A model generated the notes under the pieces. That model had not been told where the DNA came from, did no database searches, and worked only from the letters and a program-made list of their open reading frames with translations. A stretch of 64,000 bases of DNA from Desulfovibrio sp. UCD-KL4C (lineage in GTDB: Bacteria; Desulfobacterota; Desulfovibrionia; Desulfovibrionales; Desulfovibrionaceae): positions 1,002,843 through 1,066,842 of the forward strand of contig NZ_VCNC01000001.1 in the NCBI RefSeq assembly GCF_006210265.1, given 5' to 3'. Both the position numbers and the translations under genes were made by a program. Of the stretch, positions 53,062-64,000 are shown piece after piece; within the stretch, counting starts at the first letter, position 1; each line of letters starts with the position of its first letter.

Positions 53062-53539
53062 GAATATCCTCTAATAATATTTCTAATTACTAAAAATGAA
53101 ATATTACATTTGTATTGTTTTTTTTGATACTATATTTTTATCTAACTAAATTTTATATTACAAAACTAAATTAGGTCGGTGGTATTTGTTTTAATGGTAA
53201 TTAATCTTTAAAAAACTGCATAATTATAATTCATTAATAGTTATGGGGCAACCCGTAGAAGCTTCTTTTTTGTGATTAGTTAGATCATAACTTAATTCAA
53301 GTCTACAGCCGTTAATGCTAAATAATCTAATGCGTTGATTAATAAACATGCGGCTATACGATTGATTTGAATTATTTAATGAAAAAGGGATGTATCACAA
53401 TTAGATTAAGCTGCTGAATCATTCAAATATTGCGATATATTATTTATATTCCTGTCTTTTTTTATAGTATAGCAGTATGTTTTTTAAAAAAAGAATTGCA
53501 AATTTATATTATATTGATGGATGTGAACTTAGGAACGTT
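53062..53539. other. Long divergent intergenic region cdsA / HD-GYP gene
   Basis: A 478-base AT-rich stretch between divergent genes. It contains no convincing coding frame; an in-frame ATG at 53477 lacks a ribosome site. I looked for a c-di-GMP riboswitch and found none. A T-run follows GAAGCTTC at about 53258-53275. Confidence 0.6.
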
Positions 53540-55276
53540 ATGAAAAAAAAGATTGCAAAAATAAACACTATCGGTGCTGCCGCAATTGAGAAACTTTTAA
53601 GAGATATGATCAAAGATACCGAGTGTGTCCAATGTCGTAAGGCATTAAAGGAACTCACTGATCCTATTCTTTCAGCAGTTTCAAAGATGTTTGGCGAGCA
53701 GATGAATCTTGTGGACAGACTTACTGAGATCGGTTTGGCCCTTTCAGGAGAAACACGGCTTGAGCATCTTTTGGAGATGATAGTTGATGAAGCGCGTGTT
53801 CTGACAAAAGCAGATGCGGGGACTCTTTATATTGTAAATAAAGAAACTCGAAAGCTGGAATTTTCCATTATTCAAAATGACTCAATGAATGTACGCATCG
53901 GGGGAACTAATAATAGGGAATCATCTTTGCCCCCTGTTCCTCTTTATACATCAGACAATATTCCAAACAAATCTCATGTATCTGCTTATTGTGTCCTGAC
54001 AGGTGAAACCGTCAATATTGCAGATGTTTATGAAGCTGAAGGTTTTGATTTTACCGGACCTAGAAAATATGATGAAACAACAGGTTACCGTTCAAAATCT
54101 ATGCTTGTTCTGGCTCTGAAAAATCACGAACAGGATATAATAGGTGTAATTCAGCTTCTTAATGCGCTTGATGAGAATGGAGAGATTGTCGAATTTTCGG
54201 ATGATATCGTTGATATAGTCGGTTCACTTGCTTCTCAAGCTGCGATAGCTCTGACAAATGCTCAGTTGATCCAAGGTCTTAAAGATTTACTTTATTCTGT
54301 TATCCAAAGTATAGCTGCTGCGATTGACGCCAAATCTCCTTACACCAATGGACACATTGAGCGGGTTGTGATTCTTACCATGATGATTGCTGAAGCTGTT
54401 AACAACTCATCAGAAGGTAAATATGCCGACATACAATTTTCCATTGATGAACTTGAAGAATTGAAACTTGCAGCATGGATGCACGATGTCGGCAAAATCT
54501 CTATTCCTGAGCATATTGTCGATAAATCCACTAAGCTTGAAACTATTTATGATCGGTCAGAGCTTGTTGATAATCGGTTTAGATTAATTGCTGAGATTAT
54601 TAAAAACAGGAAACTCGAAGAAATAGTAACGGTTCTGTCAGATCAGACTGATCATGAGCTAATTCATGCGATTGAAGTAAAATATGCAGTTGAACTTGAA
54701 CAGCTTGAAGACGACAGAAAATTTATTGCTTCCTGCAATATTTCTAAGGAATTTATGACTGATGAACGGATTGAAAGGGTTCTTAAAATTGCTGCGCGTA
54801 CTTATGAGAGCGGGGGCGAAACTTTTAATTGGCTAAGTGATGATGAGGTCACTAATTTGTGTATTCGCAAGGGCACGCTGACAGATTGTGAACGTAAAAT
54901 TATAGAAAGCCATGCGGCAATTACTCTTGAAATGCTTTCAAGGCTTCCGTTCCCCAAAAGACTGTCACACGTTCCGGAGTACGCCGCTGCTCATCATGAA
55001 AAACTTGACGGGTCCGGTTATCCGAAAGGTTTGACCGCAGAAGAGCTCTCATTGCAGGCACGAATCATGGCAGTAGCTGATATTTTTGAGGCTCTTACTG
55101 CTAAAGACAGGCCGTATAAAAAACCTATGAAGATTACACAGGCTATTAAAATTCTCGGTTTTATGGAGAAGGAAAACCAGATTGACCCTGATATTTGTAG
55201 ACTCTTTCTCGATACCGGTCTGTTTATGGAATACGCAAAAGCTGAGCTTGATCCTTTACAGTTTGAAGACGACTAA
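53540..55276 (+). CDS. GAF/HD-GYP c-di-GMP phosphodiesterase-type protein
   Basis: 578 residues from ATG 53540, chosen because AGGA lies 6 bases upstream. A short helix with a CVQC pair is followed by a GAF domain (about 60-245; GYRSKSMLVLALKN) and an HD-GYP domain. The HD pair is at 315-316 (MHDVGK) and the signature HHEKLDGSGYP at 485-495, so the catalytic motifs are intact. They are about 170 residues apart, over 100 more than usual, because of an insertion at about 335-445. Probable role: hydrolysis or sensing of c-di-GMP, consistent with the neighbouring exopolysaccharide genes. No membrane segment. Confidence 0.9.
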   Translation: MKKKIAKINTIGAAAIEKLLRDMIKDTECVQCRKALKELTDPILSAVSKMFGEQMNLVDRLTEIGLALSGETRLEHLLEMIVDEARVLTKADAGTLYIVNKETRKLEFSIIQNDSMNVRIGGTNNRESSLPPVPLYTSDNIPNKSHVSAYCVLTGETVNIADVYEAEGFDFTGPRKYDETTGYRSKSMLVLALKNHEQDIIGVIQLLNALDENGEIVEFSDDIVDIVGSLASQAAIALTNAQLIQGLKDLLYSVIQSIAAAIDAKSPYTNGHIERVVILTMMIAEAVNNSSEGKYADIQFSIDELEELKLAAWMHDVGKISIPEHIVDKSTKLETIYDRSELVDNRFRLIAEIIKNRKLEEIVTVLSDQTDHELIHAIEVKYAVELEQLEDDRKFIASCNISKEFMTDERIERVLKIAARTYESGGETFNWLSDDEVTNLCIRKGTLTDCERKIIESHAAITLEMLSRLPFPKRLSHVPEYAAAHHEKLDGSGYPKGLTAEELSLQARIMAVADIFEALTAKDRPYKKPMKITQAIKILGFMEKENQIDPDICRLFLDTGLFMEYAKAELDPLQFEDD

Positions 55277-55294: not shown

Positions 55295-56263
55295 TTATTT
55301 CTTTGCTCGGTATTTATAAAAATCTGTCAGTTTATCCAGTGCTGCATCTGGCGTTGATGCGTAAGGGATGACTGGAAAGTTAAGTTTGTTAATCTCTTTC
55401 AAATAATCTGCGTATTGTGACTCTTTGATGTATTCAATATCAAAAATTGTTATTCCATAATCAGAAAGCTCCTTTGCTAATTTCAAACGATAGTTTTGGT
55501 CTTCTTTGCTGAAAATATTTTCCAGCAAACTTTCCAGTCCGACCATGTTTATAGTTTTGAAATATAAGTCACGATAAACAGGGGAGCAATCTGCAATGAT
55601 TCCTAGGCCGTTCTGCGGGCTGATAATAAAGTCCTTTCCAGATTTTGTGCGACAGTAATCAGCAATTCTTTTAACCAGTTTGACCATATCGTCAGCAGTA
55701 GCTTTTACATTAACGCCTTGTTCATGCCAGAACCAGTACGCATCAATAATATCTAAATAAACTCCGTCAAATCCAGCTTCTAATATGCGGTCTAAATATG
55801 GGCGAAGACCGGTTTCCCACCAATCCTCACGCCAGTAACGAACTTTGTAATTTTCAGGCCAGTCCGGATTTTCCGGACCTAGAAAATTTGGAGGATTTTC
55901 TTCCCATTCTTTTTTCCAGTAGAATCTGTATTTTTCCGCTTCTCCAATAGAGAAATAGCAGAGAACCGTCTTATCGAATTTATGCAGAATAGAAATATCG
56001 TCAGCAGTGAACTTCTTCTTGTCGGTTCCATCTGCTGAATAATCCATAACGATTAAATCATAGGGGGATTCAACCATTGCTGCAATTGATGGGGTTTGAA
56101 GCCAATACCCCCAGCTTGTTATTTCTTTTTGGGCTATATGAGTTTTTTGATGTTGTTGCATTTTGGGTTCAATCTCTGGCAGTTTTGTTGAACATGAAAA
56201 GGTAATAAAAGATATCATTAGCAACAATAAGTATTTAAATTTCAGTATGTTGGTACATTTCAT
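55295..56263 (-). CDS. GH114/TM1410-type glycoside hydrolase lipoprotein
   Basis: 322 residues. A lipoprotein signal ends at Cys24 (ITFSC). The mature domain (about 48-318) is a TIM barrel of the endo-alpha-1,4-polygalactosaminidase/TM1410 family: WGYWLQTPSI, LCYFSIGEAEKYR, GFDGVYLDIIDAYWFW (Asp candidate acid) and ISPQNGLGI. It is transcribed away from the Pel-like genes and resembles the hydrolase domain of PelA. It may trim or cleave a galactosamine-rich polymer in the periplasm or on the cell surface; function inferred. Confidence 0.82.
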   Translation of the reverse strand: MKCTNILKFKYLLLLMISFITFSCSTKLPEIEPKMQQHQKTHIAQKEITSWGYWLQTPSIAAMVESPYDLIVMDYSADGTDKKKFTADDISILHKFDKTVLCYFSIGEAEKYRFYWKKEWEENPPNFLGPENPDWPENYKVRYWREDWWETGLRPYLDRILEAGFDGVYLDIIDAYWFWHEQGVNVKATADDMVKLVKRIADYCRTKSGKDFIISPQNGLGIIADCSPVYRDLYFKTINMVGLESLLENIFSKEDQNYRLKLAKELSDYGITIFDIEYIKESQYADYLKEINKLNFPVIPYASTPDAALDKLTDFYKYRAKK

Positions 56264-56694
56264 GTTAAACCTTTAGCTAAAAGATAAAATTATAATTGGA
56301 TCTTAGATCAAAATGTAACACTTTAGTCCGTAAGTAGAAGTGAGTACTTGTTAGCACACGAATAATTTATGACGTGTTGTTCAAAGGAATGAAAATTTCT
56401 TTTCAATATTATCATAAAGGGTTAGTGTTGTTTTAATCCTATATTCATCGTTGTGTGGTTTGAGTATATACTTATTTATATGCTTGTTAAAGAAGCTTTT
56501 TGATTTGATGACTAAGCTGTACTTGTAAATGTGTGGTTAATAGATCGTAATATGCTGTTAACTCGTAACTTTATTATGTATTCAAATTTTGGGGAGTAGT
56601 TATACCTTAAATTTGTAAGTTATTTTATAACATAATTTAATCTCGTTAGAAGTTTTAAATACTTAACATTTGATATGGAGTTAGGAGGGGTAAA
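56264..56694. other. 431-base divergent region before the Pel-like genes
   Basis: An AT-rich gap that must hold the promoters of the GH114 lipoprotein gene and the pelC-like gene. No sigma-54 or sigma-28 match and no GEMM-type riboswitch is visible. An excellent ribosome site (AGGAGGGG) stands just before the pelC-like GTG. Confidence 0.6.
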
Positions 56695-57255
56695 GTGAAA
56701 AAAAGTTTATTTCCAGTGTTTTTTTTGATCATGATTCTTGCCGGATGTTCTGGGGCATATATGAAAGGGTATGTCCAGCCTCAAGGTATTGCAAGTGAAG
56801 CCCGCCATGCAGCAGTACTCCCTTTGGTTAATTTAACAAATACTCCTAATGCCGGGCGTATGGTCGGCGATCTGCTTTCTACAGAGCTTTATTCTTCCAC
56901 TAAATTCCAATTGATGGAGTCTACAGAAATGCTCAAACGAGTTAAGGGAGATAGTGATGACCTTGAATTCGTTATAGAAGATGCTGTGGCCCAAAAACTA
57001 GGAACCAGTCTCGGCGTTGATACTATTATTTATGGATCTGTATCTGAATATCAGTACAAGCGCGGTGTAAATCAAAGCCCTACTGTCGGAATTAATTTGA
57101 GAATGATTGATGTTTCTTCTGGAAAAGTTCTGTGGGCTTCATCTGTATCTAAGAGTGGAGGTTGCTTTTTCGGATGCACAGAATCTTTAAACAGCGTTGC
57201 TCAGGAAGCTCTGACAGAAATGGTAGCTTCAATGGCTGCTGTTTCTGCACAGTAG
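56695..57255 (+). CDS. pelC: PelC-like outer-membrane lipoprotein
   Basis: 186 residues from GTG 56695 behind AGGAGGGG. A lipoprotein signal ends at Cys18 (ILAGC). The mature part shows AAVLPLVNLTNTPNAGRMVGDLLSTEL, close to the PelC pattern, and an ILWAS-like VLWASSVSKSG strand; it belongs to the wider CsgG/DUF799-type fold. PelC forms a ring on the periplasmic face of the outer membrane that funnels Pel polysaccharide to PelB. It is the first gene of the cluster, whereas pelA usually comes first elsewhere. Confidence 0.8.
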   Translation: MKKSLFPVFFLIMILAGCSGAYMKGYVQPQGIASEARHAAVLPLVNLTNTPNAGRMVGDLLSTELYSSTKFQLMESTEMLKRVKGDSDDLEFVIEDAVAQKLGTSLGVDTIIYGSVSEYQYKRGVNQSPTVGINLRMIDVSSGKVLWASSVSKSGGCFFGCTESLNSVAQEALTEMVASMAAVSAQ

Positions 57256-57263
57256 TTTTTGCA

Positions 57264-58094
57264 GTGGCTCTAATTTCATTTTCTTTGTTCGGCAGTACTT
57301 TTGCGTTTGGAAAAAACAAAAATAAAGTGTCGACATGGTGCTGTTATTACGGACAGCAGGATAAGGCAGAAGATTTAATCCGGTTTGATCTTGCTGTTCT
57401 AGCTGTTGACGGCCAAAATCCGGCTCCACTTCGTAAACACGGAGTTAAATGTCTTGTTTATGTAAGTCTTGGTGAAGTTCATGCAGACAGTCCTTATTAT
57501 GCTCAGGCCGAGAAACTCGGACTGCTTGTCAGGTATAATGAGAACTGGGATTCATGGGTTGTTGATATCCGCCGTTCGGAGTGGAAAAAGATGCTTTTTG
57601 AACAGATAATTCCCGATGCGCTTAAGGCGGGATATGATGGTCTCTTTTTCGATACTTTGGATTCTCCGATTGATATGCAAAGACATGATCCTGACACATA
57701 TAAAGGAACTGAGCGAAGTTCTGTGGAATTAATTAAAGACATTCGGAAACATTACCCAAAGTTGATTCTCTGCCAAAATCGCGGATTCGAAATTATTCAA
57801 AGAACCGCACCTTATGTTGATTATTTATTAATCGAAGGTCTTAGCAGCTCTATGGATATTGCTACTGGAACCAGAAGTGATGTCTCTGCTATGGATCGCG
57901 AATTTCTAATTACCAAAGCAGACTCAGCTATTAAAAGTAATCGTAATCTTGTGGTTCTGAGTTTGGATTATGTTCCGTTTAATGATTCGCGAACGATTGA
58001 TAGCGTTTATGAATTTTCACGCAAACAGGGGTTTGTTCCTTATGTTAGTACGCCAGAACTTCATCAGGTTAATACCTATGCGCCTACTCCTTAG
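57264..58094 (+). CDS. GH114-type hydrolase, N-terminal half of a split PelA
   Basis: 276 residues from GTG 57264, 8 bases after the pelC stop. In-frame starts at 57162 (TTG) and 57174 (ATG) would overlap pelC by over 80 bases and give a long pre-signal stretch, yet the GTG start leaves a short signal with no basic residues, so the start is uncertain. The TIM-barrel domain (about 25-270) carries candidate acids D130 (FFDTLDS) and E191 (LIEGLS). In P. aeruginosa this is the N-terminal endo-hydrolase domain of PelA. Here it is a separate gene overlapping the next by 17 bases. Confidence 0.78.
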   Translation: MALISFSLFGSTFAFGKNKNKVSTWCCYYGQQDKAEDLIRFDLAVLAVDGQNPAPLRKHGVKCLVYVSLGEVHADSPYYAQAEKLGLLVRYNENWDSWVVDIRRSEWKKMLFEQIIPDALKAGYDGLFFDTLDSPIDMQRHDPDTYKGTERSSVELIKDIRKHYPKLILCQNRGFEIIQRTAPYVDYLLIEGLSSSMDIATGTRSDVSAMDREFLITKADSAIKSNRNLVVLSLDYVPFNDSRTIDSVYEFSRKQGFVPYVSTPELHQVNTYAPTP

Positions 58095-60162
58095 TTTTGT
58101 TATTTTTGTTCTCTCTTTTTCTTCCGCAGTTCAAGTGAGCTACGCAGCGCAGCTAAAGCGTAAAGTTTTAGTTTTGTATAATAGTGCTGAAAAGCAGGAC
58201 GCAACGGAAAACCTTTTTGTTGAAGGGTTTGCTATGCCGCTTAACTATCTGGGAATTTTATACAATACCCGCGATGTAAATAAGCGTCCGCTTCCTAGCG
58301 CTAAGGAAATGGAGCAATATTTAGGTGTTTTTACAACTTTTGCTGACGACTTGATGGAGAAGCCGGAAGATTACTTGAACTGGTTGATTAAGCAGCAAAA
58401 GAACGGGCGTAAAGTTCTTATTGCAGGCAGTCTTGGTGCAGCGCGTAATCTTAACGATGAAAATGTTGAACCTGCTTTAATAAAAAAAGTTTATTCTAAT
58501 TTAGGTTTTTCATGGCAAGGCAATGCTACCAATGAGCGCATCCGTCTTACATATGATTCTATTGATCAGAGTAAGATGAATTTTGAGCGAGAGCTCACTC
58601 TTTTTCCAGTCAGATATATTCATATTGTTCCTGTTGATGCCGACGCAAGATCGTGGGTGACCGTAAAAATTAAGAATAAACCTGATTCTGACGGAAGTGT
58701 TGTGGGCGTAAGCTCACGCGGAGGGTTTGTTCTGGATGGATACATGCGTTGGCAGGACCCTGTAACATTTCTCGAGCAGTGGTATCTTAATCCTTTCGAC
58801 TTTTTACAGCAATCTTTGAATTTAGATGGGGTTCCTGCTCTCACCCCGACAACGCTTAATGGTTTAAGAGTAGCTTTTGCTCATATTGATGGTGACGGTT
58901 TCGCAGGCTATACTGAAATAGATAAAAATAAGAATTGCGCTGAAATTTTAATGGAACGTATTTTTGGTCGTTATGATTTTCCAAATTCTGCATCTGTAAT
59001 TGCAGGAGAAATTGATCCTGATGTAAAGGGGAGTCCTGCGAACGTTCTTCTTGCACAAACTCTGTTCGAAATGAAAAATATCGAACCAGCGTCACATTCG
59101 TACACTCATCCTTTTGCATGGAATAAAAAACTTAGAGAATCACCTGAGTATCAAGAAGAATTTGTTGTCGGTCAGTACGAAAAAACTGGTTATAAGTTTA
59201 ATGCTACATATGAAATTGTTGATTCATGCAAATACATTTCTACAGATTTAACGCCGCCTAATCATCCGTGCAAAGTCCTTTTTTGGTCAGGGATGTGCGA
59301 TCCAAACGGGAATCAAGCTGAAATAGCCGAGAAGGCCGGACTGCTTAATTTAAATGGTGGTGATACTATTTTTGATGCCAGTCACAACTCATATTTTGGA
59401 GTTTCTCCGCTTTATAAGCCTCTTGGTGAACAAAGTCAGATTTATACCGGGCAGGCAAATGAAAATATCCTGACTAATCTATGGGCCGGACCTTATTTTG
59501 GATTTCGCAATATAGTGGAAACCATGAAGAGGACAGGCTCACCTCGTCGTGTGATGCCTGTTGATATTTATTATCATTTTTATAGCGGTGAAAAGTTTGC
59601 TTCTCTTAAAGCGTTGGAAGACGTTTATGATTGGGTTGTCTCGCAGGATTTCGCCAAGGTTTACGCCTCTGCCTACATTAAAATGGTTAATGGATATTTA
59701 TCCGGCAAAATAGACATTATCGATGCAGATCATTTTGTTATATCAGATTATAATGATTGTCTTTCATTGCGGCTGGACGGTGTGGATAAGGTGCCTGATC
59801 TGGCAAAATGCAAAAATATTATAGGTTATGACACTGAACCGGAAGGCGTTTTTGTACACTTAAATCCAGGGGCAGAGAAGGCAGAACTTGTCCTGTCTTC
59901 CAACATTAAAGTGAACGAAGGCTTTGCGTATATTAAAAGTGGCTCAGGCTGGATAAAAGATTTTCAACATATTGAGCGTGGTGCGCGGTTTATTTTTGAA
60001 TGTTTCAACAAAGGAAAGATTGTTGTTGCCGGTTTGAAACCTAACCGGAAGTTTAAAATTGTCGGGAATAAATTTTCAGCATTAGAAGTGACAGCTAACA
60101 ACAATGGTGAGATTATTATACAGAATGTAACATCTGGACCGTTGGAGATTTCGCTGATTTGA
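58078..60162 (+). CDS. pelA: PelA-like polysaccharide deacetylase
   Basis: 694 residues from ATG 58078, where a normal signal peptide begins (MRLLLSFVIFVLSFSSAVQVSYAA, cleavage near 24). A Rossmann-like region (about 28-250) precedes the deacetylase domain, whose metal ligands are D271/D273 (HIDGDGF) and H340, H344 (SHSYTHP). This spacing closely follows the D...HxxxH site of PelA. A beta-rich C-terminal domain spans about 590-694. It would deacetylate the exported galactosamine polymer in the periplasm. The start lies inside the end of the hydrolase gene, so the two are coupled and together match full-length PelA. Confidence 0.85.
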   Translation: MRLLLSFVIFVLSFSSAVQVSYAAQLKRKVLVLYNSAEKQDATENLFVEGFAMPLNYLGILYNTRDVNKRPLPSAKEMEQYLGVFTTFADDLMEKPEDYLNWLIKQQKNGRKVLIAGSLGAARNLNDENVEPALIKKVYSNLGFSWQGNATNERIRLTYDSIDQSKMNFERELTLFPVRYIHIVPVDADARSWVTVKIKNKPDSDGSVVGVSSRGGFVLDGYMRWQDPVTFLEQWYLNPFDFLQQSLNLDGVPALTPTTLNGLRVAFAHIDGDGFAGYTEIDKNKNCAEILMERIFGRYDFPNSASVIAGEIDPDVKGSPANVLLAQTLFEMKNIEPASHSYTHPFAWNKKLRESPEYQEEFVVGQYEKTGYKFNATYEIVDSCKYISTDLTPPNHPCKVLFWSGMCDPNGNQAEIAEKAGLLNLNGGDTIFDASHNSYFGVSPLYKPLGEQSQIYTGQANENILTNLWAGPYFGFRNIVETMKRTGSPRRVMPVDIYYHFYSGEKFASLKALEDVYDWVVSQDFAKVYASAYIKMVNGYLSGKIDIIDADHFVISDYNDCLSLRLDGVDKVPDLAKCKNIIGYDTEPEGVFVHLNPGAEKAELVLSSNIKVNEGFAYIKSGSGWIKDFQHIERGARFIFECFNKGKIVVAGLKPNRKFKIVGNKFSALEVTANNNGEIIIQNVTSGPLEISLI

Positions 60163-62969
60163 ACATCAAGTTATGGCGGATATTTTTATTTGTGCTCGTA
60201 TTTTTCGGAGCCACCTATCTTATCTATCCTTTTCCGAGAGATATGGTTCCGCTGTATCTTAAAAATGGTGAGATTGCGAAGGCTACTGATATAATCTCGG
60301 CACTTCTGGATAAAAATCCTGACGATCTACAACTTCTTGATATGGGAGCAGATGTATATCTTCTGCGCGGTATGCCAGATAAAGCTATCGCCAGTTTGAA
60401 GCGTATTCTTGATTCTGAACCTGAAGATGTAGCTATCCTTGAAAAGCTTGTTAAGTGTTACGAGTGGAATGTTATGCCCAGTGAAGCATTACAAACATGG
60501 GAACGCATTGCACAGTTAAGCCCTAAATGGGAAAAGCCGTTAAAAAAAATGGTTATGTATTATCGTTTTTACAACATGGTTCATAATGAAGTTTCAGCTA
60601 TAATAAAGCTTAATGATTTGCAGGCCACTAAAGAAATTACAGATGCGTTTAGTAAAGGGATAAATCTTGATGTGGCTCGTCTTTCTAAATCCTATGACAT
60701 GCAAAATAAAGATCCGTATCTGGATTATATCATCAGGCGTATTTATATTGTGGGAGAGCTGTTTAAAATAGATTTAGTTGAGAATAAGAAAATTAATTAT
60801 TTGCAATTTATTACTTATGTCCTCGAATATTATGTTCAAGTTGATCGTATTGAAGGTGCTTTAAACTTTGCAGCTTATATGGATAAAGCAATTGACAAGG
60901 GCATTAAAAGTCGCATTCAGCTTGTGAAAATCCTTGGGTGGTCGCAGCAAAATGCTGCCGCTTTAGAGCTGGCAGAGCAACTTTATAAACTTAAACCTGA
61001 TAATATTGAGCTGCTAAATGAAATGGCATGGCTCGCTCAGAGTTTAAGGAGAAATGATCTGGCTGAAGTAGTATTGAAACAGTTAGTTCGCCTTGAACCT
61101 GACAATACCAAACACCGCGAAGACCTCGGGAATATGTATTTTAATGAGGGCAAATTCGATCAGGCTGTTACTGTGTTTAGAGAGTTGGCTCAAAAATTCA
61201 GCAATTTGCTAAAGTATGCTCACAATATGTTAAGGGCTGCTTTATATAGTTCTGATCCGCAGCTTATGGCAGAAGTTGTAGCGGAAACAGGTCATCTTGA
61301 TATTGCTGATCCTGATTATCAGAGAACTAAAGCTGAACTTTTCCTCGCTCTTAATCGGCCGCGTGATGCTTATCCCATATTGAGGTCCGTAGCTGAAGGG
61401 GGGGACGGAACAATTAATGATTATGTCAGACTTCTGGACGCCGCCGGAGCAACTGGAGATGCCAAGCTTGTTGCCGAAACTGTCGACCTTGCTTTGCGCT
61501 TTGAACCGGATGACAGTTCTCTCATGCGGCAGGGGGCTGAAGCATGGTTAAATGCTGGTAATCCCGAAAAATCTTATCAGTTGTATCGTAAGTTGGTAAG
61601 CAAAGAAGGGCTGGAAAAAGATGTTATCGAAATGTTGCTGGCCGTATCTGAAACTCAAAGTCTTAAAACTGCAAAAAATGCCGCGGAATATGCAGTTAAA
61701 GTTCTGCCTGATAATTTGAAAGTACTGTCTCAAGCCGGAGAAATAATGCTTTGGCTTAACTCACCAGTTGATGGTTATCCTTATTTCAAGAAAGTAGCTG
61801 TTTTAACAGGTGGTGATAAAGACGCTGTTATGAAGCTTATGCAGGTTGCTTCTTATACAACCAATCGTAAAATTTTTAGAGATGCAGCTACGGTTGCAGT
61901 TAAATTAAGACCCTATGATGAACAGGTTGCAATGCTTGCTGCTGGCGTATGGGCTGCTGCCGGAGATACGAATAAGGCTACACACCTAATTAGCCGCTTT
62001 GCAGATAGAAAGGGTGAAACATATGAAATGCTTGTGCAGTGGGCAGAGTTTGCAGACACTTCAGGGCTTACTGAAGAAGCGTATAGACTCTATGATCAAA
62101 TTCATTCATTGAATTCAAAAGATAAAAAAGTACGCGCGAATTTAGCAAGACTTGCAGGGTGGACAAATCGTCCTAAGGTGTCAGCTAAACTTTTTGGTGA
62201 AATGTCTGATGAACAACCGCGCAGTCTCTCTTTGGCAATGCAGGCGGCAAAAGGGTATTCTGACGCAGCTGAATATGCCAAAGCTGTGAGATATTATGAA
62301 AGAGCTTTGTCACTTAAGAGTGGCGATTCTGATTTGAAGTTGGAACTTGCGCGTAACTACGGCTTTGCAGGGATGAACAGTAAGCGGATTATTTTGCTGC
62401 AAGAACTTAATGCGCAGGGAGTACTTCCGCAGGCTGAAAAAATAGAACTGGCCAGAGCTTATCTTGAAGAAAAAAATGCGCAGAAAGCTCTTGAGATTTT
62501 GGAGCCGTATGCAAGCTTAAAGACTCTTCCGAGGTTTGAAGGTTTCTTACTTGCTTCTGCTTACGATCTGGCTGGACGCAGGGAGGATGCTTCTGAAATC
62601 TATAAAAGGCTCGGCCGTGAGCATGGTAATGATGAGGTCTTCATGGCTCGCCTTGGAGCTGAGGCCCTTTTTAATAATCATGCTGATGAGGCTTTTTCGT
62701 TGTTTAAATTCGCCCTTAAGCAGGATATAAATAATCAGACTGCTCTAAAGGGAATTGCTATGATTTATGCTCAGCGAAATGAGTATAAGAAAGCTATAGC
62801 TAAATTCAGAGCATATAACAGAGTTGTTCCCGATGATGTAGATGCCAGATTCCAGCTCGGAGAAATTTATATGCAGACAGGGCGTGAAGGTGAAGCTTTA
62901 AGAGAGTTTAAAACGGCAAAGAGAATTTTGAAGCGGCATGGCATTAATGAGAAATCTCTTTTCGACTAA
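60159..62969 (+). CDS. Membrane-anchored TPR protein, PelB-like periplasmic part
   Basis: 936 residues from TTG 60159, overlapping the pelA stop (TTGA). One membrane anchor (about 4-24; LWRIFLFVLVFFGATYLIYPF) is followed by tandem TPR/helical repeats to the end. P. aeruginosa PelB (about 1190 residues) has the same N-terminal anchor and TPR scaffold, which binds PelA, then a C-terminal beta-barrel. No barrel is visible here; it may be encoded by the next gene. The anchor requires the TTG start, whose ribosome site (GGAG) is 12 bases away. No recognisable catalytic domain. Confidence 0.75.
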   Translation: MNIKLWRIFLFVLVFFGATYLIYPFPRDMVPLYLKNGEIAKATDIISALLDKNPDDLQLLDMGADVYLLRGMPDKAIASLKRILDSEPEDVAILEKLVKCYEWNVMPSEALQTWERIAQLSPKWEKPLKKMVMYYRFYNMVHNEVSAIIKLNDLQATKEITDAFSKGINLDVARLSKSYDMQNKDPYLDYIIRRIYIVGELFKIDLVENKKINYLQFITYVLEYYVQVDRIEGALNFAAYMDKAIDKGIKSRIQLVKILGWSQQNAAALELAEQLYKLKPDNIELLNEMAWLAQSLRRNDLAEVVLKQLVRLEPDNTKHREDLGNMYFNEGKFDQAVTVFRELAQKFSNLLKYAHNMLRAALYSSDPQLMAEVVAETGHLDIADPDYQRTKAELFLALNRPRDAYPILRSVAEGGDGTINDYVRLLDAAGATGDAKLVAETVDLALRFEPDDSSLMRQGAEAWLNAGNPEKSYQLYRKLVSKEGLEKDVIEMLLAVSETQSLKTAKNAAEYAVKVLPDNLKVLSQAGEIMLWLNSPVDGYPYFKKVAVLTGGDKDAVMKLMQVASYTTNRKIFRDAATVAVKLRPYDEQVAMLAAGVWAAAGDTNKATHLISRFADRKGETYEMLVQWAEFADTSGLTEEAYRLYDQIHSLNSKDKKVRANLARLAGWTNRPKVSAKLFGEMSDEQPRSLSLAMQAAKGYSDAAEYAKAVRYYERALSLKSGDSDLKLELARNYGFAGMNSKRIILLQELNAQGVLPQAEKIELARAYLEEKNAQKALEILEPYASLKTLPRFEGFLLASAYDLAGRREDASEIYKRLGREHGNDEVFMARLGAEALFNNHADEAFSLFKFALKQDINNQTALKGIAMIYAQRNEYKKAIAKFRAYNRVVPDDVDARFQLGEIYMQTGREGEALREFKTAKRILKRHGINEKSLFD

Positions 62970-62998
62970 GCGAAACAGGGCCTCGGCAAGGAAAAATT

Positions 62999-64000
62999 TT
63001 GAAAGAAGTCAAAGAATATAAATTTATAATTTTGTTAGTAGCATGTTTGCTACTCTTTGTTTCTGCGCCGTTCTTGCAGGCGAAAGAGAATTCTTCCGGT
63101 GCGATTGAAAAAGTGTGGACTGTTCGTGTTTCTACTTTTGAAAATGAAAGCAATGCGTGGGATTTTGTTACATATTTAAAGAGTAAAGGTTATAAACCGG
63201 TTGTTATAAGACTTTTTGACTCAAAATATAAACTTTGGACTGCTGTGCAGGTTGGTGATTACCCGACACATAGTCAGGCCGTGGCATCAGGGCGTTCATT
63301 TAAGCGTAAAATGAAATTGAACTATCAGATCAAAAAAATGGATGCCAAGTTTCTTTCTGAAAGAACAGCTGTTTCATCAAAGACTCCGCTACCTGTAAGA
63401 CCTGATGAAATAGGACCAAGTTATTCTGTTAGAAAGAAAGTTGTTAAGACTGTTCTGACTAGTGGTAAAAAAGCAGTGAATTTATCTAGTGTTTCTGAAG
63501 AGTCCTTTTATGAAATTACTCAGGATGATGTCCTTCGGGCTGTCTCTACACGGCAGAGAAAAATTATTTTAACCCGTATTATGGTTAGACGTGGTTACAT
63601 TGATGACGGAATCAGGATGTATGAAAAATTGCTTAAGATATACCCTGAAGATATGGATCTGCGTGAAGAATATATTTCAACGCTTATCGATAATGAAGAG
63701 TACAATAAGGCAGGAAGTCTGCTTCAGAGCTGGCTTGAGGATGATCCTGCCGCTGCTGGAGCCTTAAGACAGAATACGCGGCTTAAATTTTTAACTGGTG
63801 ACTATTCACAGCAACAGGCTTCTTTAAATTATCTTTTGAAACTTCGTCCTGGAGATATTGATGCGTTGTCTTCAAGCGCGTACGGGCGGCAGGAAGGTGG
63901 AGATTGGCTTGGAGCTATCGAAAGTTTTTCCGAACTGATCGATCGTGAGCCTGATAATGCTGATGCGCGGATAGCACTGTCCGGTCTCCTCAAACAGCAC
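62999..64000 (+). CDS. Secreted SPOR-domain and helical-repeat protein (partial)
   Basis: 334 residues are visible from TTG 62999 (AGGA 8 bases upstream), and the frame is open to the right edge. An N-terminal signal or anchor (about 8-27; FIILLVACLLLFVSAPFLQA) is followed by a SPOR peptidoglycan-binding domain (about 38-115; VWTVRVSTFENESNAWDFVTYLK), a linker, then TPR-like repeats from about residue 175. It lies 29 bases after the TPR gene and is very likely cotranscribed. If the downstream part encodes a beta-barrel, it would be the outer-membrane half of a split PelB; that cannot be seen here. Confidence 0.75.
   Translation, partial: MKEVKEYKFIILLVACLLLFVSAPFLQAKENSSGAIEKVWTVRVSTFENESNAWDFVTYLKSKGYKPVVIRLFDSKYKLWTAVQVGDYPTHSQAVASGRSFKRKMKLNYQIKKMDAKFLSERTAVSSKTPLPVRPDEIGPSYSVRKKVVKTVLTSGKKAVNLSSVSEESFYEITQDDVLRAVSTRQRKIILTRIMVRRGYIDDGIRMYEKLLKIYPEDMDLREEYISTLIDNEEYNKAGSLLQSWLEDDPAAAGALRQNTRLKFLTGDYSQQQASLNYLLKLRPGDIDALSSSAYGRQEGGDWLGAIESFSELIDREPDNADARIALSGLLKQH

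Follow-up and report, generated by a model that had tools for sequence, protein, structure and literature searches.

Can a Pel exopolysaccharide exporter be assembled from separately encoded parts, and what might a SPOR domain do on its outer-membrane pore? Both questions are raised by a locus in Desulfovibrio sp. UCD-KL4C that starts inside a 64,000-nucleotide stretch of the 3.93-Mb genome (contig NZ_VCNC01000001.1, positions 1,002,843 to 1,066,842; G000:C1:1002843-1066842), henceforth referred to as the window, and runs past its right edge. We analysed 33 kb, about 23 kb of it beyond that edge, and give coordinates as window positions (a position in the fetched locus, L002, plus 54000). Through gene content, homologies, predicted folds, catalytic residues and conservation in the genus, we identified a genuine Pel exopolysaccharide locus that is complete and unfused, the functions of PelA and of PelB each being spread over two genes. 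The reading we favour, and hold to be probable, is that of an unfused Pel locus with a complete exporter whose porin carries a SPOR module that most likely ties it to the cell wall.

From pelC onward the genes lie on the plus strand, several of them overlapping and none more than 84 bases from its neighbour. The gene pelC (56695-57255, 186 codons) specifies a PelC-type outer-membrane lipoprotein and is followed by a GH114 hydrolase gene, the counterpart of the PelA hydrolase domain (57162-58094; PF03537 72.4 bits, cut-off 27), by a separate gene for a PelA-type deacetylase of family CE21 (58078-60162), by a 936-codon TPR protein matching the N-terminal part of PelB in gene position (60159-62969), and by a 626-codon SPOR-TPR-barrel porin, the counterpart of the PelB C-terminal part (62999-64879; L002:8999-10879), whose stop lies 879 bases beyond the window edge. 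Next come pelD (64964-66382), pelE (66354-67424), pelF (67402-68937; NF038011 521.3 bits, cut-off 100) and pelG (68941-70311; PF16933 464.4 bits, cut-off 29). Family scans of the locus returned GH114 twice, TPR, SPOR, GAF with a weak GGDEF, PelF and PelG. An initial annotation, made from the window alone, had proposed a Pel-type locus and expected pelD, pelE, pelF and pelG downstream; we found these four directly after the porin gene, the deacetylase and lipoprotein match the solved PelA and PelC, the porin is predicted to be a PelB-like barrel, and neither of the outcomes it had regarded as contrary (no pelD-pelG, or a deacetylase or lipoprotein belonging to other families) was seen. All of its open reading frames are present at the positions it gave, among them the hydrolase and deacetylase genes overlapping by 17 bases (deacetylase ATG at 58078) and the SPOR gene that leaves the window from 62999. 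The earliest possible start of the GH114 reading frame creates a 94-base overlap with pelC; an in-frame GTG at 57264, 8 bases past the pelC stop and before a signal-peptide-like stretch, appears to be as good a start.

This arrangement is highly conserved close to home, in a genus that is probably Maridesulfovibrio. The order of eleven genes is identical in all sixteen same-genus loci fetched, the window's own counted, and PelG together with the SPOR-barrel gene occurs in 16 of 17 genomes of the genus, the remaining one (G002) having neither. For comparison further afield, a wider set took the best 80 of 583 PelF-confirmed loci, from a list that was ordered by similarity to the window and contains many Pseudomonas entries, as well as the 10 other loci of the window's phylum whose PelG exceeded the cut-off (as it did in 11 of 395 genomes, including the window's own).

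The porin combines a SPOR module with TPRs and a predicted barrel. In an AlphaFold2 model built from 17 sequences (mean predicted local distance difference test score, pLDDT, 78; predicted template modelling score 0.51), a signal-peptide-like start is followed by a SPOR fold, a low-confidence linker (residues 138-180), helices (184-334) and 16 strands (337-625), which provides the C-terminal barrel that the initial annotation had suggested looking for in the full gene. The SPOR module (residues 36-116; 63104-63346) scores 30.6 bits against Pfam SPOR PF05036 (cut-off 21), and the same family is detected in all sixteen genus porins at E <=0.01, the score cut-off having been checked for the window porin alone. 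Modelled by itself the module reaches a pLDDT of 94.6, and its nearest solved folds, with Z from 10.7 to 7.1, are 6ozd and the SPOR wall proteins CwlC, RlpA, DedD and DamX (9.3, 8.8, 7.6 and 7.1 for these four), against at most 5.3 for the remaining, unrelated folds; its Foldseek E-values are no better than 1.3e-3. The module also appears to be maintained: its ratio of nonsynonymous to synonymous substitution rates (dN/dS; five pairs, custom script) is 0.06-0.15, which indicates purifying selection; the linker has 0.21-0.37 and the barrel 0.045-0.071.

Within the order Desulfovibrionales, PelG was identified in 33 of 297 genomes, comprising 16 of the genus, 15 other members of the family and 2 from elsewhere. 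We fetched 16 of the 17 loci outside the genus, leaving out G458 (43% complete), and found a barrel with SPOR in three, a barrel without SPOR in four and neither in nine. The three with SPOR (L171, L183 and L175, the last apparently the same as L070) all belong to one other genus of the family, and their domains score 15.8-16.9 bits with Pfam SPOR, under the cut-off of 21, and are found by a profile made from the genus. Outside the family, SPOR was absent at E 0.1 from ten barrels, including that of a one-piece PelB, which brings the PelB barrels without SPOR to 14 (4 in the family, 10 outside). Because the SPOR-bearing barrels seen all belong to this family and 14 others scanned do without, the module is an addition within the family and not an outcome of the PelB split. 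The proposal that SPOR makes up for the split was weakened by the four family relatives (L172, L173, L185 and L186) that have a two-part PelB barrel and no SPOR. On whether SPOR was gained once, the evidence points both ways: the SPOR label needs 2 changes on a 32-row PelF+PelG tree, on which SPOR-less L172 is sister to the genus with support of 96/96, while in both SPOR-bearing genera the domain is followed by a similar stretch (by eye), which speaks for one gain.

At its ligand position the module departs from the usual SPOR pattern. SPOR domains have a highly conserved glutamine that contacts denuded glycan (RlpA Q270, FtsN Q251; PMC6895207, excerpts). This residue is an arginine in 17 of 17 rows (16 of the genus and L070) and, with L171 included, in 18 of 19 SPOR rows, L183 keeping Gln, while the glutamine is present in all six other SPOR domains of the window genome. 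The exchange in the genus and the retention of Gln elsewhere in the genome weigh against wall attachment. In an alignment with FtsN, the position of Arg285 is Val or Ala and Trp283 is kept, two positions at which contacts with the muramic acid portion are reported for SPOR complexes (PMC6895207, excerpts). Since the ligand Gln is Arg here and Gln in the genome's other SPOR domains, the module may bind something other than ordinary denuded wall. Thus, of the initial suggestion that a peptidoglycan-binding part had been added, the SPOR fold is supported by the standalone model and its matches to solved SPOR folds, the exchange of the ligand Gln across the genus counts against wall binding, and attachment to the wall is plausible given the modelled fold.

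One alternative accepts the same exporter and gives the SPOR module another ligand: after retuning, it would bind the Pel polymer under export, or some other glycan, in place of denuded peptidoglycan, taking it over from the TPR scaffold and delivering it to the pore. The exchange of Gln for Arg, set against the six unchanged domains of the genome, would fit this idea, as would the location of the module on the porin, along the path of the polymer, and the Val or Ala at the FtsN Arg285 position, a muramic acid contact site, given that Pel contains no muramic acid. The last of these points is not telling, however, as Arg at the 285 position is missing from several other SPOR domains of the genome too. 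In addition, L183 keeps the ligand Gln; we regard a polymer binder as unlikely. It is a shade less likely still, in our judgment, that the module is a low-function passenger whose gains and losses in the family are random. Such a history would account for the 2 changes on the 32-row tree and for the placement of SPOR-less L172 beside the genus, but it sits poorly with a dN/dS well below that of the adjoining linker and with the occurrence of SPOR in all sixteen genus loci. We retain wall attachment of the porin as the favoured reading of the module.

Is the porin indeed that of a Pel system? In the PDB it comes closest to PelB (9h80_M; Foldseek E 7.7e-16; Z 27.5 over 336 residues, root-mean-square deviation 3.5), followed by 4y25, which we take to be PgaA (Z 26.4), and BcsC (Z 26.3), with the remaining porins at 18.8 or less. 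In the model a short helix (455-460) separates strands 7 and 8, and strands 15 and 16 are linked by a Gly-rich loop; these are the positions given for Plug-I and Plug-S in PelB (PMC12141448, excerpts). Aligned profile to profile, the porin and PelB match at E 2.2e-6 by virtue of their TPRs, with poor alignment in the barrel. On the predicted fold alone PelB cannot be separated from 4y25 and BcsC; gene content does so. The near-equal Z-scores are the best argument for an exopolysaccharide system other than Pel, of the poly-N-acetylglucosamine (PNAG) or cellulose type, and the TPR matches do include PgaA and BcsC models, all far below their cut-offs. That possibility is already contradicted by gene content, with PelF and PelG models far above cut-off and PelC and the PelA deacetylase matched by sequence, and we consider it highly improbable.

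Several features nevertheless tell against a textbook Pel exporter and have to be set beside this evidence. The Pfam PelB barrel family PF24604 had no match at E 0.01 in 17 porin rows, and the porin is therefore identified through its predicted structure, the gene order and chained profiles. In PelC, Asp119 is replaced by Asn and Trp149 by a CFFGC insert (Gly in that column) in all sixteen genus sequences. At the PelD Arg402 column all 17 genus rows have Asn, two of these rows coming from a single contig. Finally, the PelE profile also picks up TPR proteins, so that pelE is named mainly by its place.

With regard to PelC, the window protein alone, which is the clean test (a profile containing P. 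aeruginosa PelC itself was not used as evidence), matches PelC 9h80_C in the PDB at E 9e-13, in agreement with the initial call of a PelC-like lipoprotein. It has a lipobox-like LAGC (by eye) and scores above the Pfam cut-offs for CsgG, LpoB and GNA1162, and misses the NCBIfam LpoB equivalog (38.3 of 110.55 bits). In P. aeruginosa, Asp119 and Trp149 of PelC are described as holding the PelB-PelC joint and the lipid anchors (PMC12141448, excerpts). Among 55 other loci, Asp is found in 52 and Trp in 49, and PelC of L070 keeps the Asp and has a CFYGC insert. Because the joint-holding Asp119 and Trp149 are both replaced, the PelB-PelC joint has, judging from these sequences, probably been rebuilt in the genus. 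The CFFGC insert, kept across PelC proteins of the genus, could form a disulfide in the lipoprotein. PelD combines GAF with a weak GGDEF and keeps the RxxD motif in 17 of 17 genus rows. The product of pelE stands in the expected place, with N-terminal hydrophobic stretches and HEAT/TPR matches.

The inner-membrane half of PelB corresponds to the TPR protein, which has TPR family matches and an N-terminal hydrophobic helix (by eye); its description as a membrane-anchored protein of 936 residues was accurate. Its gene stands directly before the barrel gene in all sixteen genus loci. A single PelB chain from the inner to the outer membrane is accordingly not what we found, the TPR protein and the porin being separate genes. 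We labelled the state of PelB by hand on a PelF+PelG tree made with a quick method (57 rows: 26 split, 22 one-piece, 9 unlabelled), where L142 may be a frameshift and a small partner gene of L062 was not seen. The split or one-piece label needs 6 changes on this tree, at least 3 of them forced by starred branches, indicating on these sequences that the split is real but recurrent. Indeed, "pelB fission" has already been published for other bacteria, the aquatic thermophiles (PMC7112194, excerpts). Sequencing errors, or decay of PelA and PelB genes that were once in one piece, are refuted as the source of the splits by gene borders identical in 16 of 16 genus loci, by the signal-peptide- or helix-like start of each product (by eye) and by the SPOR module lying between the two PelB halves. 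Nothing at the window favours such an origin; elsewhere, L142 looks like a case of it, its PelF and PelG being nearly identical to those of L133, which has a one-piece PelB.

PelA, by comparison, appears to have a different history. A profile of 14 genus deacetylases had a single match in the PDB, to residues 419-812 of PelA 9cgy (E 2.4e-80), and the in-operon GH114 protein is 28% identical over 243 residues to the hydrolase part of PA7 PelA. Residues D273, H340 and H344 of the deacetylase align with the metal/base residues D530, H600 and H604 of P. aeruginosa PelA, and D164 and E225 of the hydrolase with D160 and E218, where we assume a shift of 6 between PA7 and PAO1 PelA numbering. Catalytic roles for the aligned PelA residues have been reported (PMC12022489, excerpts). 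In place of one PelA chain there are two genes in all sixteen genus loci. The wider set held 79 deacetylase sequences of sufficient length (L069 repeats the L052 contig), of which 49 are fused to GH114, 27 are standalone and 3 are cut. A deacetylase tree of 47 rows, made after the removal of 7 rows of the genus, 22 fused rows and the 3 cut sequences, has one branch (98/94) that parts 27 of 27 fused from 20 of 20 standalone forms, some rows being long-branched. The standalone side spans Thermodesulfobacteriota, Planctomycetota, Calditrichota, Myxococcota, Elusimicrobiota, Bdellovibrionota and one other bacterium. When Azospirillum and Cetobacterium were added (41 rows) the single fused/standalone change was kept with weaker support (93/65), and the PelF+PelG tree likewise has one change; the Cetobacterium deacetylase, whose terminal branch is 7 changes per column long, cannot fix the root when taken as outgroup. 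Because the trees put the fused and standalone forms across one branch, the two-gene state of PelA is more likely the older one and was probably never fused in the window's lineage, with a root that is inferred and not computed. On the same footing, the simplest reading is a single PelA fusion, in a lineage with Pseudomonas, other families of the window's phylum, a myxobacterium and Verrucomicrobiota. The initial statement that the same machine had been divided into more parts thus holds for PelB, where the split is real but recurrent, and is not supported for PelA.

A fusobacterial pel locus on a Cetobacterium somerae plasmid has a standalone deacetylase (L156:8895-10724) that scores 313.8 bits with Pfam DUF2194. 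The window deacetylase scores 33.1 bits and, because DUF2194 matches both proteins, this family seems to be the PelADA family.

How would such a set of parts work together? The activities, the hand-over between the PelB halves and the ligand of the SPOR module are what we infer. By the roles of their families, PelF would make the polymer, which in Pel systems is an alpha-1,4-GalNAc chain with partial deacetylation, and PelD, PelE and PelG would hold the synthase and move the polymer across the inner membrane; cyclic di-GMP (c-di-GMP) could switch synthesis on at the RxxD site of PelD. The membrane-anchored TPR protein would convey the polymer through the periplasm, where the free PelA-type deacetylase and the free GH114 hydrolase would act on it. 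A separate outer-membrane porin would then receive the polymer via its own TPRs inside the PelC ring, and the polymer would exit through a PelB-type gated barrel. The SPOR module, on its flexible linker, would most likely anchor the pore at the cell wall, possibly where cells divide. A bolder version, which we put forward tentatively and consider rather doubtful, is that the exporter works without any single membrane-bridging chain, that a retuned SPOR places the pore at peptide-stripped wall sites, letting polymer emerge at sites of division, or on the polymer itself, that one-piece PelA is derived in one lineage, and that the Pel machine began as separate parts.

All seven functions of P. 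aeruginosa pelABCDEFG (9cgy PtPelA, 9h80 PelBC and the PA7 locus, L100) are common to the window locus, with PelC, the PelA deacetylase, PelF and PelG alike by sequence, the PelB barrel by predicted fold and PelE named mainly by its place. Unlike P. aeruginosa, the window has PelA and PelB in two genes each, pelC first, SPOR on the porin, and a PelC without Asp119 and Trp149. The Gram-positive pelDEADAFG locus (Bacillus cereus; PMC7112168, PMC13254593) also has the deacetylase and hydrolase separate; as set out in excerpts of these reports it has no outer-membrane parts, whereas the window has PelC, the TPR protein and the porin. The "pelB fission" loci of aquatic thermophiles have PelB in two genes as in the window, a likeness drawn from the text of PMC7112194 and not from a comparison of split sites, and the text section on them mentions no SPOR module. 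A locus on an Azospirillum thermophilum plasmid (L157) has, as the window does, separate GH114, deacetylase, TPR protein and porin genes, then pelD-like, pelF and pelG; it differs in having no SPOR, pelC after the porin and a PelG that is 36% identical. The N-terminal stretch of its porin (about 110 residues, L157:6805-7140) looks wall-binding-like by eye and had no Pfam match even at E 10, and two other Azospirillum plasmids hold relatives of this porin covering 94% of the protein. Unlike CwlC, RlpA, DedD and DamX, with which it shares its fold, the window SPOR is fused to a polysaccharide porin and has Arg in place of the ligand Gln. Among other sulfate reducers, pel genes have been published for Seep-SRB1a and 1g (PMC10553843, excerpts). 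This form of Pel is known piecewise, with separate PelA parts in Gram-positives and pelB fission in thermophiles. In the open-licence literature searched (text, without figures or supplements) we found no description of a SPOR-bearing PelB or of the locus of the window's family, and a SPOR module on a Pel porin is apparently new.

The natural two-part PelB offers a direct test of whether the exporter needs one chain from the inner to the outer membrane, and the family relatives with or without SPOR, and with Gln or Arg, provide a ready comparison for exporter placement at the cell wall. Moreover, the trees suggest that fused PelA, the basis of the standard model, is one derived form, with separate enzymes in more phyla.

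The nine loci of the order with no barrel seen are a mixed group. Five (L174, L176, L177, L178 and L181), from one genus of the same family, have pelF-pelG-epimerase with a PelD-like open reading frame nearby, and pelE in 4 of 5. No deacetylase, TPR protein, porin or pelC was found within about 19 kb in these five, which by their sequences are Pel-type synthases without export parts. In L179 (G614) the operon is otherwise Pel-like and the TPR protein is followed by a 254-codon open reading frame with a signal peptide plus TPR, in which the barrel was not found; either the barrel has been lost or the gene may be broken. Of the others, L184 has a fused PelA at a contig end, L182 is cut and L180 is masked.

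Beside the operon, a second GH114 gene of the TIGR01370 type (220.9 bits, cut-off 181.25) lies divergently on the minus strand (55295-56263). Fifteen of the 16 genus loci have this gene, and the sixteenth (L052) is cut by a contig end; it is possibly part of the Pel system. A promoter scan of 56264-56700 returned 2 promoter-like sites against 2.7 expected, and no terminator was found there. The gene at 53477-55276, also beside the pel locus, has HD-GYP-like motifs (by eye), which are associated with c-di-GMP breakdown, and strong relatives in the fetched stretch of 3 of 15 other genus loci (L044, L045 and L046). On the far side, pelG is followed on the plus strand by an epimerase gene (70326-71285) and an HDOD-like gene (by eye; 71337-72413, L002:17337-18413), both named by sequence without a family call, and the HDOD-like gene stands after the operon in all sixteen genus loci.

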